Origin: Bacteroidota bacterium
GTDB lineage: Bacteria; Bacteroidota; Rhodothermia; Balneolales; HLUCCA01
Length of the DNA: 64,000 nucleotides
Assembly: GCA_020832235.1 (NCBI GenBank)
Contig: JAFIEZ010000003.1
Location: 528,264 to 592,263 of the forward strand
Reading direction: 5' to 3'
Made by a program: the position numbers and the translations under genes. Of the stretch, positions 26,021 through 34,769 are shown piece by piece (within the stretch, counting starts at the first letter, position 1; each line of letters starts with the position of its first letter). The notes under the pieces are model-generated. The model was not told where the DNA came from, did not search any database, and saw only the letters and a list, made by a program, of their open reading frames with translations.

Positions 26021-26827
26021 TTAGTTTTGGGAACCGTACTTAATTGTTTTTACAAAAAGTTTAACCTGGTCTAGCCAGTCTGAGTTTGGATAGTTTTTTC
26101 TTATGGTGTCTATCAAAGCACTTCCTACAACAAATCCACTCAGACCGGAAGAAACACGCATTGCGTCAGTATGGGTTCTGATCCCAAAACCAACAAGAAC
26201 AGGATTTTTCGTTATGTTGGCCTTAACACGTCCAATAAACTTATCTACAGATTGGGCAACTTGATCACCGTCTCTTGCTCCAGTTACACCTGTAACAGAT
26301 ACACAATAAACAAAGCCATTCGATTTTGAATCGATTAGTTTCATTCGTGAATCTGTGGTATTGGGCGCAACTAGATGAATCAGCGACATGTCGTATTTGG
26401 TGCAGTGTTCTTCAACCAAACCCGTTTCTTCAACAGGGACATCCGGTAAAATAAACCCATCAACACCAGATTCAGCTGCTTTACTAAAGAACTCATCAAC
26501 TCCATAATGTAAAATAGGATTGATGTAGCCCATTAAAACAATTGGAATTTGAGAAGATTGCCGGATCTCACGAACCATCGAAAATATCATATCCAGGTCG
26601 GTTCCTTTTTCAATGGCTACCTCACTGGAATACTGGATGGTCGGGCCGTCGGCCAGAGGATCACTGAAAGGCATTCCAAGTTCAATTATATCAGCACCAG
26701 ACTCTTCCAGTGCTAATACAAGATCAGCCGTAACAACTGGTTCCGGATATCCGGCTGTAATGAACATGGCCATAACAGACTTATCTTTACTATTTTTAAA
26801 AACGGTATGTATTCTTTCTGAGGGCAT
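26021..26827 (-). CDS. trpA: Tryptophan synthase alpha chain
   Basis: The protein (268 residues from the ATG at 26827) has the TrpA motifs ELGMPFSDPLADGPTIQ, VLMGYINPI and FVYCVSVTGVTGAR. The catalytic Glu is in the first motif and Asp in ILPDVPVEE. It splits indole-3-glycerol phosphate and channels indole to TrpB. The start at 26827 lies 1 bp after the trpB stop; a frame from 26866 would overlap trpB by 38 bp. It is the last trp gene. Confidence 0.95.
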   Translation of the reverse strand: MPSERIHTVFKNSKDKSVMAMFITAGYPEPVVTADLVLALEESGADIIELGMPFSDPLADGPTIQYSSEVAIEKGTDLDMIFSMVREIRQSSQIPIVLMGYINPILHYGVDEFFSKAAESGVDGFILPDVPVEETGLVEEHCTKYDMSLIHLVAPNTTDSRMKLIDSKSNGFVYCVSVTGVTGARDGDQVAQSVDKFIGRVKANITKNPVLVGFGIRTHTDAMRVSSGLSGFVVGSALIDTIRKNYPNSDWLDQVKLFVKTIKYGSQN

Positions 26828-26828
26828 T

Positions 26829-28013
26829 TTATATAAATTTAGATATCGTAGCCATGTCTTTATCACCTCGACCTGAACAATTAATTACCACAATTTCTCC
26901 GGAGCTGGTTGTGGGCATGAGAGTATCCAGAAACGCCATCGCGTGCGCAGTTTCTAACGCAGGAATAATGCCTTCCATCGATGAAGTCAATTTAACACCC
27001 CTTAGTGCTTCTTCGTCTGTCACAGGAACATACTGTACTCGTTTAATGTCGTGTAAGTGAGCATGCTCAGGACCAACACCGGGATAGTCAAGGCCAGCAC
27101 TGACCGAGTGTGCTAATGCTATCTGGCCTTGTGTTGTTTGAAGTAAATAACTCAGTGAACCGTGCAACACACCTGGCTTACCTTTAGCAAATGTTGCGGC
27201 CGTCTGACCTGACTCCACACCATACCCTGCAGCTTCCACACCTATGAGCCTAACCGTATCGTCATCGATGAATGGATAAAAAATACCCATCGCGTTTGAC
27301 CCACCTCCTACACATGCAATTACATAATCAGGGAGTTTTCCTTCTTTTTCCATGAGCTGTTTTCGGGTTTCATCACCAATTATTCTGTGAAAATCGCGAA
27401 CCATCATGGGGTAAGGATGAGGTCCAACAACAGAACCAATAATGTAAAACGTATCATCAACGTTAGTTACCCAATCACGTATAGCCTCGTTAGTAGCGTC
27501 TTTTAAGGTTTGTGAACCACTGGTAACGGGCCTGACCTCTGCACCTAACAAGCGCATTCTGTCTACATTCAACTTTTGTCGCTCGGTGTCCTCCGCACCC
27601 ATATAAACAACGCATTCCATGCCAAATTTGGCGCACACGGTAGCTGTAGCTACCCCATGCTGTCCTGCGCCGGTTTCTGCAATGATACGCTTTTTGCCCA
27701 TGCGCCTGGCCAGTAAAACCTGTCCAACGGTGTTGTTTATTTTATGAGCACCCGTGTGACAGAGGTCTTCTCGCTTAAGGTAAATCTTAGCTTTGCCGTA
27801 GTGATCGGTGAGGCGCTCTGCCAGGGTTAATGGTGTTGGTCTTCCAACATATTCACGAAGTAAATCAAGAAACTCTTCTTGAAAAGATGAGTCTTTCAAA
27901 ATGGCTTCATAGGCAAGCTCTAGTTCCTCAAGTGCCGGTATTAATATTTCAGGTACGAATTTACCACCAAACTTACCGAAATAACCGTTTTTAGTAGGGC
28001 TGCTGTACTGCAT
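26829..28013 (-). CDS. trpB: Tryptophan synthase beta chain
   Basis: This 394-residue protein has the TrpB1-type PLP lysine motif [29 protein letters not shown] and the phosphate loop [10 protein letters not shown]. It condenses indole and serine to tryptophan in an alpha2beta2 complex with TrpA. The gap to trpF is 10 bp. Confidence 0.96.
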
Positions 28014-28023
28014 AGTTTTTTAA

Positions 28024-28683
28024 TTAATGCGCGTTATTAATGCGCTCTATTTCGTCAAAAAAAGCTTCCATTTTGGCAAAGTCTTTTACACCAGGTGATT
28101 CTTCCAATGAACTGGACACATCTACTGCGTAAGGCTGAACAGACTTAATAGCTTTTCCAACATTATTGTTATTCAATCCACCTGATAAGAAGATTTCATA
28201 ATCGTGCACAAGATCTCCGATTACATCCCAATTAAACGTTTCACCGGTACCTCCATAGTGCTCTTTTGAGTATGTATCGAACAAAAAATGATCGACATGA
28301 CGAATATAGGGTTCCATAAGATAACACAGATGATCCGAGGTCATGTCTGGGGTGATGCGAAACGCCTTTATTATCTTTACATGTTCAAGTTGCTCACAAT
28401 ACTCGGGGGATTCATCGCCGTGTAGTTGAACTACCGTAACTCCTGTTGAGGTGGCAACATCCCGCACAAACTCAATGGGCTGGTTTACAAATACACCTAC
28501 ACATTCTGGTCCCTCCACCCAATTAATTATCTCTTTGGCGTCTTCCGGACTTATGTAACGAGGTGAATTCGGATAAAATATGAACCCAAGATAATCGGCC
28601 AGTGCTCCGGAGGCATAACGAGCATGATCTAATCTCGTCAGGCCGCATATTTTTACTTTAGCTTTTTTTTCGTCTAAAAACAT
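28024..28683 (-). CDS. trpF: Phosphoribosylanthranilate isomerase
   Basis: At 219 residues it begins KVKICGLTRLDHA with the catalytic cysteine, continues LGFIFYPNSPRYI, VVQLHGDE and FLLSGGLN-like FLSGGLNNNNV, and ends with the DVSSSLEESPGVKD phosphate-binding segment. It converts phosphoribosylanthranilate to CdRP. It is a separate gene, not fused to trpC. Confidence 0.95.
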   Translation of the reverse strand: MFLDEKKAKVKICGLTRLDHARYASGALADYLGFIFYPNSPRYISPEDAKEIINWVEGPECVGVFVNQPIEFVRDVATSTGVTVVQLHGDESPEYCEQLEHVKIIKAFRITPDMTSDHLCYLMEPYIRHVDHFLFDTYSKEHYGGTGETFNWDVIGDLVHDYEIFLSGGLNNNNVGKAIKSVQPYAVDVSSSLEESPGVKDFAKMEAFFDEIERINNAH

Positions 28684-28691
28684 AATTGTAT

Positions 28692-29492
28692 CTAATTCTG
28701 AACGCGTAACGGTTCTAATATTGAATCAAGTTCCTTTCCTGGATCGGCGGCTTTCATAAAATACTCGCCAATAAGTGCAGCGTGAATCCCTTCTTTTTGA
28801 AGCAATTGCAGGTCTTCAGTGGAAGATAGTCCACTCTCAGAAACAAGACAGACCCCATCGGGCGCCTCTTGCAAGAGAGCAATACCTTTATGAACATCGA
28901 CCTCAAAAGTATTCAGATTTCGATTGTTCGTACCTAAAATACGAACCTGATTGAATGATACCTTGGCAAAGTCTTCTTTACTATAACATTCAACCAGACA
29001 TTCAAGCCCTGCTTCTGTAGCTGCATGATGCAGTTCATTTAGCTGAGATTCACTGGTTATGGTTGCAATAAGCAATACGGCGTCTGCCCCAAAAGCTTTG
29101 GCTTCCTCAACTTGATATGGATCGATGATGAAATCTTTCCTCAATACCGGTACCTCGGCCATTCTGGATACATCCCTCATATAATTTAAATGTCCCTGGA
29201 AAAATGGTTCATCTGTAAGTACTGAGATGGCGGAGGCGCCAGCTTTCATGTATTGTTCGGCATGCAATTCCGGCTGAAAATCAATTCGAATAACTCCTTT
29301 TGACGGAGATGCCTTTTTTATTTCTGCTATTACACGCACTCCGAATGCAGACGTATTCATTAGTGACTCATACAAACTTTTTCTTTGTCGTTCGTAGTCT
29401 TCAAAGCTTCTGAAATCGGTAAAAGAAATCTTTTTCTTGCGTTTTAAGATATCTTCATGTGTTTGCGTAGTAATTTTTTCGAGAATGTTCAC
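28692..29492 (-). CDS. trpC: Indole-3-glycerol phosphate synthase
   Basis: The protein has the TrpC core VIAEIKKASPSKGVI, VLTDEPFFQG, VLRKDFIIDPYQ, LGTNNRNLNTF and LVSESGL. It closes the indole ring of CdRP. The start is taken as GTG at 29492, because GTGA overlaps the trpD stop by 4 bp and the protein then begins NILEKI like other TrpC proteins. An ATG at 29525 would give 11 more residues and a 37-bp overlap with trpD. Confidence 0.93.
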   Translation of the reverse strand: MNILEKITTQTHEDILKRKKKISFTDFRSFEDYERQRKSLYESLMNTSAFGVRVIAEIKKASPSKGVIRIDFQPELHAEQYMKAGASAISVLTDEPFFQGHLNYMRDVSRMAEVPVLRKDFIIDPYQVEEAKAFGADAVLLIATITSESQLNELHHAATEAGLECLVECYSKEDFAKVSFNQVRILGTNNRNLNTFEVDVHKGIALLQEAPDGVCLVSESGLSSTEDLQLLQKEGIHAALIGEYFMKAADPGKELDSILEPLRVQN

Positions 29493-30529
29493 AGTTGCTC
29501 CTGACTGTTTAGGGTCGTAGTGCACAATGCGAAATCATTTAGCGCCTTTAAAGCTGCCCCTGAGCGAATACTTGCTTCGGCCATTTCACGGGCAACGGAT
29601 AGCGACTCCGCTTTTCCGCTGGTGTAAATACCAAAAGCAGCGTTTATTTCTACAATATCATGCTGTGCCTTTGTAGAATTACCTGAGAGTATGGCCTTTA
29701 TAATCTTTGCGTTCTGAACGGCGTCACCACCAAGGAAGGCGTCCTCATGGTACATGGTATAGCCCAGATCGGCAGGATCAAATCGAGTTCCGTCCGAAGA
29801 CACACTATGCTTTAGCTCATAAATTTCGGTCAAGGTTGTAAGAGATACTTCATCGAGCCCATCATTAGCGTGCAACGTCATGGCATAGACCGTATCAAGA
29901 TTGGCCAATATCCGTATCATGTCATGAGCTACATCTCGACTATATGTGCCAATTACCTGACGTTTAACCCCGGCCGGGTTCAATAGCGGTCCGAGTATAT
30001 TAAAAAAGGAGCGCATTCCAAGTGATTTACGCGCAGGCATTACGTATTTCATTGCGGGATGGAATAATGGTGCAAACATAAACACCATACCCGTCCGCTC
30101 AAAACAAATCTTCGCATTTGCCGGACTCAGAGCCGGCTGCGCACCCAACTCTAACAAGACATCATAACTCCCGCTCAAACTTGAAATGCTTCTGTTACCG
30201 TGTTTTAATACCGGCACACCTGAGCCGGCAACAACGAACATAGCAGCAGTTGAAATATTAAACGTACCAGAGTGGTCGCCTCCAGTTCCACATAAATCGA
30301 CAGCACCCTCTGTAATTACATCCAGTTTAACCGCATTTTCCCGCATCACTTGAACGAACGCTGTGAGCTCATCAATGGTCTCGCCCTTGGATCGCATTCC
30401 GAATAAAAAGGCCGCAATTTGCGCATCGGGTACGGTACCGGTAAGTATAGATGCCATGGCGTGCTTCGCCTCATCAGCAGACAGATTTTCCCTGTCGCTT
30501 ATTTTTTGCAATAAGTCTGTGAACATCAT
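29489..30529 (-). CDS. trpD: Anthranilate phosphoribosyltransferase
   Basis: The 346-residue protein has the TrpD signatures DLCGTGGDHSGTFNIST, LKHGNRSISS and the closing DEVSLT motif. It joins anthranilate to PRPP. The start overlaps the trpG stop by 4 bp (ATGA), typical of translational coupling. It is not fused to trpG as in enterobacteria. Confidence 0.95.
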   Translation of the reverse strand: MMFTDLLQKISDRENLSADEAKHAMASILTGTVPDAQIAAFLFGMRSKGETIDELTAFVQVMRENAVKLDVITEGAVDLCGTGGDHSGTFNISTAAMFVVAGSGVPVLKHGNRSISSLSGSYDVLLELGAQPALSPANAKICFERTGMVFMFAPLFHPAMKYVMPARKSLGMRSFFNILGPLLNPAGVKRQVIGTYSRDVAHDMIRILANLDTVYAMTLHANDGLDEVSLTTLTEIYELKHSVSSDGTRFDPADLGYTMYHEDAFLGGDAVQNAKIIKAILSGNSTKAQHDIVEINAAFGIYTSGKAESLSVAREMAEASIRSGAALKALNDFALCTTTLNSQEQL

Positions 30530-31089
30530 GATTTTACCCAGTTTGCGATGAGTTTTGGTCCCTCTACGGTAAGAATGCTTTCAGGATGAAACTGAATTCC
30601 TTCAATTGGATACTCACGATGTCGTACGCCCATTATTACACCATCAGGTGTTTTGGAAGTCACATCAAGTACGTCAGGGAGGGTTTCAGGTTTAAGCACA
30701 AGTGAATGGTAACGCGTTGCCGTGAAATCTTGTTCAACATCTTGGAAAATGGATTTGCCATCATGATTAATAACGGATGTTTTACCGTGCATTAGCGATG
30801 GAGCATGAATTACATCCCCTCCAAAAACCATCCCAATAGCCTGATGACCAAGGCAAACTCCCAAAATGGGTATACGCGAACCGAATCTACTTATTAATTC
30901 CGGTGTGATACCAGCATCTTCCGGACGACCAGGGCCCGGTGATATCAATATTTTATGAGGTTTCATTTTTTCAACCTCATCCAAGGTAATTTTGTCGTTT
31001 CGGATTACGGTATAAACACTGGTGTGAGCTGCCACTAAATGGACCAGGTTATAAGTGAACGAATCGTAATTATCGATAATCAGTATCAT
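30526..31089 (-). CDS. trpG: Anthranilate synthase component II (glutamine amidotransferase)
   Basis: This 187-residue class I amidotransferase has IIDNYDSFTYNLVH, the nucleophile cysteine in GVCLGHQAIG and the His-Glu pair in IQFHPES. It supplies ammonia to TrpE. PabA-type use for folate cannot be excluded, but the operon context favours tryptophan. It lies 9 bp downstream of trpS. Confidence 0.93.
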   Translation of the reverse strand: MILIIDNYDSFTYNLVHLVAAHTSVYTVIRNDKITLDEVEKMKPHKILISPGPGRPEDAGITPELISRFGSRIPILGVCLGHQAIGMVFGGDVIHAPSLMHGKTSVINHDGKSIFQDVEQDFTATRYHSLVLKPETLPDVLDVTSKTPDGVIMGVRHREYPIEGIQFHPESILTVEGPKLIANWVKS

Positions 31090-31098
31090 GAGTCCTCT

Positions 31099-32139
31099 TT
31101 AAAAGTGTCGAACAAGACCAGTTGCCTTGCGAATGGGGTTCATAACTTGCTCAGCTCTATCCCGGGCTTTTTCTCCGCCCAAAGCAAGTATTCTGTGCAC
31201 TTCATCTTCATTATTGGCAAGAACCTTTCTACGGTCACGTGCTGGTGAAAACCGCTCATCAATCATTTCAAGCAGCGCTTTCTTTGCATGCCCATACCCA
31301 AATCCACCTTCTCGATATTTTGTTGCGATATAGCTACGGTCCGAGGCAGATGCAAAGAGCTTAATCAAGGCAAATACGTTGCATTTTTCAGGATCTTTCG
31401 GAGACTCTAATGGAGTAGAATCTGTTTCTATAGCCATTACTCTTTTCTTGAGCTCCTTGCCCTCATCAAATATTCCAATCGTATTCTGATACGATTTACT
31501 CATTTTACGACCGTCAATACCAGGTACAGTGGCAACAGCCTCGAGTATACGTGCCTCAGGCAATCTGAGTAAATTTTGATTGTAGGCGATGTTGAGCTTG
31601 ACTGCCAGATCTCGAGTGATTTCAATATGCTGTTTCTGATCTGCTCCAACTGGTACAATGTCAGCATGATAAATTAATATATCGGCGGCTTGTAATATCG
31701 GATAAGTAAACAGGCCTACGTTCGCAGATAATCCATGAGAAATTTTATCTTTGTAGGAGACAGCTTTTTCCATAAGCCCCATAGGACAAAGGCTTCCAAG
31801 TATCCATGACAGCTCAGTGACTTGTGGAACATCACTTTGTGCAAAGAAAGTACACGTATTATAGTCGAGCCCGAGTGCGAGGTAATCGAGAGCAATATCC
31901 AGTGTATGCCTGTGCATGAGCACACCGTCATGCCGAGATGTCATTGCGTGATAGTTTGCAATAAAAAAGTACGCATCTCCCTGGTCCTGCAAGTCTATGT
32001 GTTGCTGCATTGCTCCAAAATAGTTGCCTATATGCAGACGACCAGAAGGCGTTATTCCAGACAATATTGTTTTATGTATGTTACCTTCACTTTGAGACAC
32101 CGTCGTATCTGCTTTATTAACTGCTTCTTGTTTTTCCAT
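31099..32139 (-). CDS. trpS: Tryptophanyl-tRNA synthetase inside the trp operon
   Basis: The 346-residue class I synthetase has the HIGH-type motif GRLHIGNYFG and KMSKS in GRKMSKSYQN, with VGADQKQHIE typical of TrpRS. It charges tRNA-Trp. An N-terminal tail of about 23 residues precedes the core. It lies 24 bp after trpE and 9 bp before trpG, so it should be under the trp leader attenuator. That makes the enzyme that charges the sensor tRNA part of the regulated set. Confidence 0.95.
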   Translation of the reverse strand: MEKQEAVNKADTTVSQSEGNIHKTILSGITPSGRLHIGNYFGAMQQHIDLQDQGDAYFFIANYHAMTSRHDGVLMHRHTLDIALDYLALGLDYNTCTFFAQSDVPQVTELSWILGSLCPMGLMEKAVSYKDKISHGLSANVGLFTYPILQAADILIYHADIVPVGADQKQHIEITRDLAVKLNIAYNQNLLRLPEARILEAVATVPGIDGRKMSKSYQNTIGIFDEGKELKKRVMAIETDSTPLESPKDPEKCNVFALIKLFASASDRSYIATKYREGGFGYGHAKKALLEMIDERFSPARDRRKVLANNEDEVHRILALGGEKARDRAEQVMNPIRKATGLVRHF

Positions 32140-32163: not shown

Positions 32164-33633
32164 TTAAGCGTTCATATTCAAGGCAACGGATAACGCTTCT
32201 ACGAGAGCTTTGGCTTTGTTTACTGTTTCCATGTACTCATTTTCTGCAACTGAATCGGCTACAATGCCTGCCCCGGCTTGAATATATACCGTGTCAGGTG
32301 TAGCAACCATTGTCCGAATTGCAATACAAGTATCCATATTTCCGGAAAAGTCAAAATAGCCGACGGCTCCAGCATAAGGTCCTCTTTTGGAAACTTCTAA
32401 TTCATCAATTATCTCCATAGCACGAACTTTCGGTGCACCGCTAACTGTTCCTGCAGGGAAGCAATGAATGAGAGCATCAACAGCTGTTTTCCCCTCATCC
32501 AACTCCCCCTCAACATCCGATACAATATGCATTACGTGGGAGTACCGCTCTATTGCATGAGATCTAGACAACTTAACTGTACCTGATTTACAAATACGTG
32601 ACAGATCGTTTCTGCCCAGATCAACCAGCATAATATGCTCGGCTAGCTCTTTAGGGTCATTTATCAAATCTTTTTCATAGGCAATGTCTTCCTCGGTTGT
32701 TGCACCACGCGGACGGGTTCCAGCAATCGGTAGTACCTCTGCTTTATTGTCTTGTACCCGTACCAGTACCTCAGGAGAAGATCCAACCAATGCAAAATCA
32801 TTGAAATCCAGAAAAAAGAGATATGGGGAAGGATTTACCATTCGAAGAGCACGGTACAGCATAAAATTATCCCCCTCATACCCTTTGGCGAACCGTTGTG
32901 AAAGTACCACCTGAAAGATATCACCTTCGTAAATGTAGCTTTTTGCCTTCTCCACCATATTAGAAAACTGCTCCTGTGGAGTATTACTGACCAAAGGTGC
33001 ATCACTGAGGGAGAAATCTCCCATAAGAGGTTCGCGATGCAGAACAGATTGCATCTTCTCAAGTGATTTAAAAGCCTCATCATACTGTTCTCTTAAGTCT
33101 TTATTCTTGTCAATGAAGACTGTTTTAATGAGTATGATCTGGTGCTTAACATGATCGAATGCATAAATTTCATCATAAAACGCCCAGGTAGATTCAGGCA
33201 ATTGCAAGTTATCAGCCGGTACATTTGGCAAGTGCTCTGTGTAGCGTATTGTATCATACGATGAATAGCCTACGGCGCCACCGGTTAAGCTCGGAAGTCC
33301 GGGAATCTTAGGTTCAGAGTGCTTTATTATCAATGACCGAAGTACGTCATAAAAGGGTACTCCTTCGTAACGTTGTATTGAGTGATCAGCATGTTTACGT
33401 AACTGTGTCACCCCGTTTTCGATTGTCAGTACCTGAAACGGATTAGATCCGAGAAAGGAGTATCTCGCCAGGTTTTCACCACCTTCAACAGATTCAAATA
33501 AAAATGGGTTTCTGGCACCCTGACGAAGCTTGAGAAATAATGAAACCGGCGTTAGAACATCCGCCATGGCTCTGGTGTATACCGGCACAGCGGAATGATG
33601 TTTAGAAAATTGCAAAAATTGCTGAAATGTCAT
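32164..33633 (-). CDS. trpE: Anthranilate synthase component I
   Basis: At 489 residues it has the feedback-site segment PFLFESVEGG (LLES-like), VVLSQRF, PSPYLFFLDF, SSPEVLVRV, IAGTRPRG and the chorismate-site CFPAGTVSGAPKVRAME. It converts chorismate to anthranilate with TrpG. The ATG at 33633 lies about 30 bp downstream of the attenuator terminator. The feedback motif suggests inhibition by tryptophan in addition to attenuation. Confidence 0.96.
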   Translation of the reverse strand: MTFQQFLQFSKHHSAVPVYTRAMADVLTPVSLFLKLRQGARNPFLFESVEGGENLARYSFLGSNPFQVLTIENGVTQLRKHADHSIQRYEGVPFYDVLRSLIIKHSEPKIPGLPSLTGGAVGYSSYDTIRYTEHLPNVPADNLQLPESTWAFYDEIYAFDHVKHQIILIKTVFIDKNKDLREQYDEAFKSLEKMQSVLHREPLMGDFSLSDAPLVSNTPQEQFSNMVEKAKSYIYEGDIFQVVLSQRFAKGYEGDNFMLYRALRMVNPSPYLFFLDFNDFALVGSSPEVLVRVQDNKAEVLPIAGTRPRGATTEEDIAYEKDLINDPKELAEHIMLVDLGRNDLSRICKSGTVKLSRSHAIERYSHVMHIVSDVEGELDEGKTAVDALIHCFPAGTVSGAPKVRAMEIIDELEVSKRGPYAGAVGYFDFSGNMDTCIAIRTMVATPDTVYIQAGAGIVADSVAENEYMETVNKAKALVEALSVALNMNA

Positions 33634-33655
33634 GATTACCCTTGTTCTTTAAAAC

Positions 33656-33687
33656 AAAAAACCCACAACAGAGTACTGATGCGGGTT
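33656..33687 (-). terminator. trp attenuator terminator (3:4 hairpin)
   Basis: On the minus strand AACCCGCA (33687-33680) pairs with TGTGGGTT (33667-33660) across a 12-nt loop, with one G-U pair, and is followed by a T-rich run. It stands between the leader peptide and trpE. Confidence 0.85.
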
Positions 33688-33743
33688 CGTCAAAAAAGTC
33701 TTTGTTAAATAAACACAGCTTATGCGAACCGCTTTGCGAGCGG
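33681..33743 (-). promoter_or_regulatory. trp attenuator: protector and antiterminator segments
   Basis: Segment 1 CCGCT (33743-33739) pairs with segment 2 AGCGG (33733-33729). Segment 2, read as GCGGTTCG (33732-33725), can instead pair with segment 3 CGAACCCGC (33689-33681) through 8 bp with one bulged C. Segment 3 also forms the terminator arm, so the two are mutually exclusive. A ribosome stalled on the Trp codons would cover segment 1 and free segment 2 for antitermination. A ribosome at the leader stop would cover segment 2 and allow termination. Confidence 0.82.
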
Positions 33744-33782
33744 CCACCACCAGTTTACAGTATTTGCTGTGATTAGTAACAT
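33720..33782 (-). CDS. trpL: trp operon leader peptide with three consecutive Trp codons
   Basis: A 20-codon ORF (ATG 33782, TAA 33722-33720) reads MLLITANTVNWWW then PLAKRFA. The three Trp codons at 33752-33744 lie immediately upstream of attenuator segment 1, and the stop codon lies just after segment 2, the geometry of ribosome-mediated attenuation. Its product has no function beyond being translated as a sensor of charged tRNA-Trp. The promoter -7 element ends only 5 bp before the ATG, so there is almost no 5' untranslated region and no Shine-Dalgarno. Confidence 0.88.
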   Translation of the reverse strand: MLLITANTVNWWWPLAKRFA

Positions 33783-33787
33783 GGCGC

Positions 33788-33818
33788 CAAAATTATATGC
33801 TTGAGACGGCAATGTCAA
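33788..33818 (-). promoter_or_regulatory. trp operon promoter
   Basis: On the minus strand TTGACA (33818-33813) is followed by TAATTTTG (33795-33788), with exactly 20 bp between the TTG and the TAnnTTTG box, the Bacteroidota arrangement. The same stretch holds TATAAT 15 bp after TTGACA. The expected RNA start is near 33784, next to the leader ATG. Confidence 0.72.
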
Positions 33819-33938: not shown

Positions 33939-34769
33939 TTGAAAGCTTATTTCTATCTCATTTTTACTGCCTGTGTTGTAATTGTTTCTTGCAGCGATAT
34001 TCCTTCCAGAGAAGAAGCAGGTGAATTTATTCAAATTACTGATTTCTCGATTTCACCTGATGCGTTCGCCTTTAATATAGATGATGGTGTAGGTGATACC
34101 AGTGTTATCGCGAATCTAAACATTCGATTTAATGTCCTTTCAGACACAGGTGAATCACCAGCCAAGCTAGGCTACATTATCCGAGATGCAACAACAGACC
34201 TCACTTTATTTGAAGGTGAGCATGCAGTGGACTTTTCAACCAATACTGCCCAGATTGAAATACCACTTACACTCAGAACCTTCGACAGCAGAGAGCTTGG
34301 GTTAACATCTTTTTTTATCTCTGATGGTCGTTTACTTTCAAATGTAGCTACTGGAAGTATTCGCGTGAGGGGGTTTTCAGTGGGTTTGCCAGAGGTAGTT
34401 TCTGTAGAAAATCCTGACACTGTAAGAATTCCGGCAGCCAACCAACCAAACGTGGGTTTTAGTTTGAAAGCCCGTGTGATACATCCCGTAGATCAAGCAC
34501 TAATAAATCGCGTATTGGTAGACATACGAGATCAGGGGAATAATCTACTTGCCGGCTCACCCTTTCAAATGTTTGACGATGGAAATTTAGCAACCTTACC
34601 TACCGGCAGCACATCAGGTGACGAAGTAGCCGGCGACAGCCTCTACACGCGTCTCTTTCAGATAAGTTCAGCAAATAATCCCGATGTTTACACCATGTTT
34701 TACCACGCTATAGATAATTTTGGTGCAAGCTCAGACACCGTACAGTCTACCATGAGGTTCATCCGATAA
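33939..34769 (+). CDS. Lipoprotein of unknown function, TTG start
   Basis: The 276-residue protein begins with a lipoprotein signal ending IVSC. The frame has no ATG upstream of the signal, so TTG at 33939 is the likely start. The body is beta-rich. The segment DDGNLATLPTGSTSGDEVAGDSLYT is trimmed here to its core, SGDEVAGDSLY, a pattern seen in surface Ig-like modules of this group. It is first in a four-gene run and its stop is directly followed by the next ATG. Function is unknown; a surface-assembly or adhesion role is only inferred from neighbours. Confidence 0.75.
   Translation: MKAYFYLIFTACVVIVSCSDIPSREEAGEFIQITDFSISPDAFAFNIDDGVGDTSVIANLNIRFNVLSDTGESPAKLGYIIRDATTDLTLFEGEHAVDFSTNTAQIEIPLTLRTFDSRELGLTSFFISDGRLLSNVATGSIRVRGFSVGLPEVVSVENPDTVRIPAANQPNVGFSLKARVIHPVDQALINRVLVDIRDQGNNLLAGSPFQMFDDGNLATLPTGSTSGDEVAGDSLYTRLFQISSANNPDVYTMFYHAIDNFGASSDTVQSTMRFIR

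Follow-up and report, generated by a model that had tools for sequence, protein, structure and literature searches.

The window, by which we mean the whole 64,000-nt stretch of DNA analysed here, forms part of a 597-kb contig in a 3.38-Mb genome belonging to Balneolales, the order from which the closest named trpE records also come, and carries on its minus strand a tryptophan operon with the gene order trpE-S-G-D-C-F-B-A. Upstream of trpE lie a short Trp-rich open reading frame, a series of segments with alternative pairing partners, and a terminator. In the direction of transcription, the features are:

33813..33818, minus strand: -35-like TTGACA of a putative promoter, its TTG 20 nt before TAnnTTTG (from sequence; a similarly spaced TTG(A/C) precedes most Balneolales leaders)
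33788..33797, minus strand: -10-like TATAAT / TAnnTTTG of the putative promoter, ending 5-9 nt before the leader ATG (from sequence and relatives)
33720..33782, minus strand: trpL leader ORF of 20 codons, MLLITANTVNWWWPLAKRFA followed by a stop, with ATG at 33782-33780 and TAA at 33722-33720 (from sequence)
33766..33771, minus strand: 5' strand of the outer stem, with core CACAGC and extending further in the predicted fold (from folding and cognate duplex comparison)
33744..33752, minus strand: Trp triplet TGG TGG TGG, putative stall site (from sequence and conservation)
33739..33743, minus strand: segment 1, CCGCT (from sequence; paired in the predicted fold)
33725..33733, minus strand: segment 2, AGCGGTTCG, partner of segment 1 or segment 3 (from sequence; tracks segment 3 across relatives)
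33714..33719, minus strand: outer stem, 3' strand, core GCTGTG (from folding and cognate duplex comparison)
33681..33689, minus strand: segment 3, CGAACCCGC, 3' strand of the antiterminator and 5' strand of the terminator (from sequence and comparison with relatives)
33659..33666, minus strand: segment 4, GTGGGTTT, 3' strand of the terminator (terminator -15.9 kcal/mol)
33651..33661, minus strand: T-run of the terminator, TTTTTTGTTTT (from sequence)
32164..33633, minus strand: trpE, first structural gene (Pfam PF00425 and PF04715, Chorismate_bind and Anth_synt_I_N)
31099..32139, minus strand: trpS, tryptophanyl-tRNA synthetase, 24 nt after trpE and before trpG (Pfam PF00579)
26021..31089, minus strand: trpG, trpD, trpC, trpF, trpB and trpA, in that order (Pfam for G, D, C, F and B)
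26021-26866, minus strand: trpA (assigned by position and sequence, without a family search)

An earlier, sequence-only reading of this DNA had described a 20-codon leader ORF with three consecutive TGG codons on the minus strand upstream of trpE, together with segments that pair as 1:2, as 2:3 with one bulge, and as a 3:4 terminator followed by a T-run. All of these elements were located as claimed, and the identity of trpE, whose ATG lies at 33633, is backed by Pfam. On the minus strand, CCGCT (33743-33739) pairs with AGCGG (33733-33729), GCGGTTCG (33732-33725) pairs with CGAACCCGC (33689-33681) around the single bulge, and GAACCCGC (33688-33681) pairs with GTGGGTTT (33666-33659) to form the terminator. 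The T-run consists of T6 at 33661-33656, then G, then T4, and ends 17 nt before the start of trpE. The predicted fold of 146 nt of the window has a z of -2.5, with equal stability in 2 of 200 shuffles. The window 2:3 duplex is unremarkable when taken alone (-12.6 kcal/mol, shuffle p 0.125); judged from the comparisons below, the significance of this pairing comes from relatives, not from the window sequence alone.

The putative promoter, whose elements immediately precede the leader ATG, places the predicted RNA start at the leader, not downstream of it. In nearly all Balneolales a TAnnTT-type -10 element, with TTG(A/C) upstream, precedes the leader start codon by 5-12 nt. From this spacing we infer a 5'UTR of ~0-4 nt, too short for a Shine-Dalgarno sequence, and the mRNA from which trpL is translated is therefore probably leaderless or nearly so. 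On the opposite strand, a divergent ORF (33939-34769, plus strand; 276 aa, with a lipoprotein-like start) begins ~120 nt from the trp promoter and has no Pfam match.

Conservation of the leader was assessed in the trpE-upstream DNA of 69 Balneolales genomes (the window's own included), ~40 other members of the class and 40 other members of the phylum, scoring short ORFs with WW or WWW no more than 330 nt from trpE, with reverse strands and dinucleotide shuffles as controls. A consecutive-Trp leader, WW, is present in 65/69 Balneolales and WWW in 62/69; the corresponding figures are 25/41 and 15/41 loci for the rest of the class, and 27/40 and 25/40 for the rest of the phylum. Reverse strands yielded 0, 2 and 0 WW leaders in these three groups respectively, shuffles yielded 1.4, 1.4 and 0.4, and WWW was found in neither control. 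Two of the four Balneolales that fail the leader test (L109 and L149) have a WWW leader that is merely farther from trpE than 330 nt. In the third, L144 (G103), the leader carries Trp-Cys-Trp (TGG TGC TGG) in place of WWW. The fourth, L115 (G029), retains a terminator-like hairpin upstream of trpE and has no Trp-codon leader, and attenuation may have been lost there. Peptide residues other than WWW are poorly conserved among Balneolales leaders. A pattern scan of the window's own genome for ATG-N-TGGTGGTGG returned 29 matches, against 22 in the control.

The remainder of the anatomy is similarly widespread within the order. Nearly all Balneolales leaders are followed by a terminator with a T-run, of ~-14 to -23 kcal/mol; the search missed that of L130. 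Segment 3 has either CCCGC or CCCAC as its core, and segments 2 and 4 change along with it. At the variable position after CCC, the combinations across segments 2, 3 and 4 are T/A/T in 28, C/G/C in 22, C/G/T in 8, T/G/C in 3 and T/G/T in 1, all of them compatible with standard or G-U pairs; segment 2 is unassigned in two cells. Within the CCCAC subgroup, two genomes have C-G for U-A in the 2:3 pairing while segment 4 is still U. When core types are swapped, the duplex between segments 2 and 3 is 4-6 kcal/mol weaker than the cognate one. Within alignments of a single subgroup, segments 2, 3 and 4 hardly change and the outer stem is put out of register by gaps, so that covariation counts stand out poorly from those of shuffles; covariation was instead assessed through between-genome cross-pairing and the three-way table of segments 2, 3 and 4. 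By these comparisons segment 3 covaries with both segment 2 and segment 4, and clearly so between subgroups; the relatives thus supply the compensatory changes, joining all three segments, that the sequence-only reading had looked to them for. Of the outcomes named there as counter-evidence (an unconserved leader ORF, missing compensatory changes, or an RNA start downstream of the leader), none is borne out by these comparisons or by the predicted promoter position.

One element had escaped that reading, namely an outer stem in which the 5' half of the leader ORF, from codons 2-9, pairs with RNA just past segment 2. Its sequence is highly variable among genomes, with pairing retained: across 64 leaders the mean duplex energy is -12.8 kcal/mol for cognate strands, -8.5 for non-cognate and -7.6 for shuffled. 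The outer stem would prolong the 1:2 hairpin around the Trp codons, and a ribosome at WWW would be expected to open it.

The behaviour of these structures was examined by folding the RNA through segment 3 while the 31 nt of a ribosome footprint were kept unpaired. With the ribosome placed on the first Trp codon, the 5' arm of the terminator pairs with upstream RNA at a mean of 0.70 over 64 leaders; the mean is 0.62 for the last Trp codon, 0.16 for the stop codon and 0.35 without a ribosome. For the window leader the values are 0.55, 0.53, 0.12 and 0.28. Switching, defined as Trp-codon and stop values that differ by over 0.2, is seen in 62/64 leaders and in 37% of controls in which the intervening RNA was shuffled. 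The E. coli trpL positive control behaves alike under the same protocol (Trp 0.57, stop 0.02, free 0.06). In 62 of the 64 leaders, then, the antiterminator is predicted to form with the ribosome at the Trp codons and not at the stop, in agreement with the earlier suggestion that stall site and stop codon fit the classical E. coli model. When the full-length RNA including segment 4 is folded, the terminator is favoured at equilibrium in every state, stall mask included, and the switch must therefore be kinetic, set by the order of transcription, as is likewise assumed for trp attenuation in E. coli. The antiterminator of some relatives also forms without a ribosome in these folds, so that termination is less clearly the default there.

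We consider it very probable that the window element is a classical, ribosome-mediated transcription attenuator of the trp operon. The support consists of computed anatomy, conservation, compensatory changes, folding and gene order, from which we infer start site, translation, stalling, termination, read-through and the response to tryptophan. Transcription would start no more than a few bases from the leader ATG. With charged tRNA-Trp plentiful, the ribosome would reach the TAA and cover segment 2, and the 3:4 terminator would end the transcript at ~127 nt. With charged tRNA-Trp scarce, the ribosome would stall at WWW and open the 1:2 and outer stems, so that segments 2 and 3 could pair before segment 4 has been transcribed, and polymerase would continue into trpE-S-G-D-C-F-B-A. 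Should the leader not be translated, the 1:2 structure would form and termination would be the default.

The same arrangement might instead be a constitutive intrinsic terminator behind a chance short ORF, giving a fixed read-through with a leader that senses nothing. Terminators alone are common and the 2:3 duplex of the window alone is not significant, but WWW leaders occur in 62/69 Balneolales against 0 in shuffles, segment 2 tracks segment 3 across the order, and the masked folds switch in 62/64, and we regard this explanation as extremely improbable. It is also very unlikely, if a shade less so, that the main sensor is something else (a TrpR-type repressor, a TRAP-like protein or a T-box) and the leader ORF secondary. 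A search of 21 genomes recovered no Trp repressor above cut-off, a single sub-threshold match in the window's own genome containing stop codons, and a search of the whole window at gathering score found no Rfam family, T-box and Trp_leader (RF00513) included; Trp_leader is not among the matches at E up to 10 either. The regulator search covered TrpR and the Rfam families, and a promoter-level regulator could act in addition. A further alternative adds to the attenuator a trans role for the ~127-nt terminated RNA or for the peptide, as with rnTrpL/peTrpL in Sinorhizobium meliloti. The two systems share an outline, in that trpL is probably leaderless here and attenuation operates without a repressor, and in Rfam the RNA resembles the sRNA family RcsR1 weakly and without significance (E 1.5). 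Poor conservation of the peptide outside WWW argues against a peptide function, and we assign this extension a small chance.

Taking the element as a ribosome-mediated attenuator, its most interesting feature is the presence of trpS within the controlled operon. trpS directly follows trpE on the same strand in all 44 of the 44 Balneolales with enough downstream DNA, and in several class members outside the order it lies ~540-740 nt further on. Exactly one trpS match was obtained in 56/60 Balneolales genomes (the window's own and 55 relatives), and the four genomes without a match are assemblies of 390 to 520 contigs. In the window's own genome no TrpRS gene was found besides this trpS. Because this single gene lies inside the operon, the attenuator is predicted, barring an internal promoter, to precede the only TrpRS gene, and the switch would therefore adjust the charging enzyme as well as the pathway. 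The operon thus offers a natural case in which a charging enzyme and its pathway lie under one predicted attenuator whose sensing ORF is probably translated leaderless. A related trp operon in L020 (PZPG01000012.1) has trpG directly after trpE; it lacks trpS at that place and shows no clear WWW leader.

More broadly, one near-leaderless Trp attenuator may be the main control of both Trp synthesis and the only TrpRS across an entire order, forming a feedback loop through tRNA charging that dispenses with a repressor; we give this wider proposal an even chance. If it is true, low charging caused by a lack of Trp and low charging caused by a lack of TrpRS would be sensed as one signal, and TrpRS, an essential enzyme, would have to come from basal read-through of the terminator.

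Beyond Balneolales, a strong terminator follows 23/25 WW leaders in the rest of the class, segment 2 passes a simple duplex test in 17, and by these sequence criteria the predicted switch is common to much of the class. In the rest of the phylum the same search finds a terminator after 20/28 WW leaders, and the antiterminator duplex test is passed by only 2/28; we therefore claim only leader and terminator there. Elsewhere in the phylum (L211-L224 and L235-L250), WWW or W-rich leaders such as WFWWW and WAWWW are seen upstream of trpE, many with terminators. A small-genome block in the phylum sample (L230-L232 and relatives) has no WW leader. Our search of the open-access literature returned nothing relevant on trp attenuation in Balneola, Rhodothermus, Flavobacteria or Bacteroidota. 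Vitreschak and colleagues, in a comparative study of 2004, reportedly already predicted some attenuators in Bacteroidetes/Chlorobi, and we therefore make no claim of priority. The mechanism is a known one, and the lineage is apparently undescribed. Our analysis extends trp attenuation, with support from covariation, to Balneolales and much of their class, and indicates that Trp-run leader peptides upstream of trpE are widespread in the phylum.

Several known systems share parts of this arrangement. E. coli trpL (RF00513) has the same tandem-Trp leader ORF, the same segments 1-4 and the same terminator and T-run before trpE, with a stop codon placed for the ribosome to cover segment 2 and similar behaviour in masked folds. 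The window element differs in giving no match to an Rfam model at gathering score, in having three Trp codons where E. coli has two, in its predicted near-leaderless start and an outer stem running through codons 2-9, and in the inclusion of trpS in an operon for which no TrpR was found. A leaderless trpL is not new in kind, with precedents in S. meliloti and S. lividans. In S. meliloti the RNA begins at the trpL AUG and attenuation operates without repression (PMC7298713), as predicted here, and leaderless translation of trpL has been observed (PMC10117765); that system belongs to another phylum, encodes another peptide and controls a trpE(G) transcript. The leaderless trpL of S. lividans is likewise known (PMC8079986), and trp attenuators have been predicted in Streptomyces (PMC1262725). 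Streptomyces places a leaderless WWW leader, trpL1 (MFAHSTRNWWWTAHPAAH), before trpE and a Trp leader, trpL2, before trpS (PMC8079986). The first of these resembles the probably leaderless WWW leader described here, but trpE and trpS are separate units with leaders of their own in Streptomyces, whereas a single leader precedes both in Balneolales. Finally, the pheST attenuator of gamma-proteobacteria (mentioned in PMC1262725) also sets an aminoacyl-tRNA synthetase operon behind a cognate leader; pheST contains no biosynthetic genes, whereas here the synthetase and the pathway share one attenuator.
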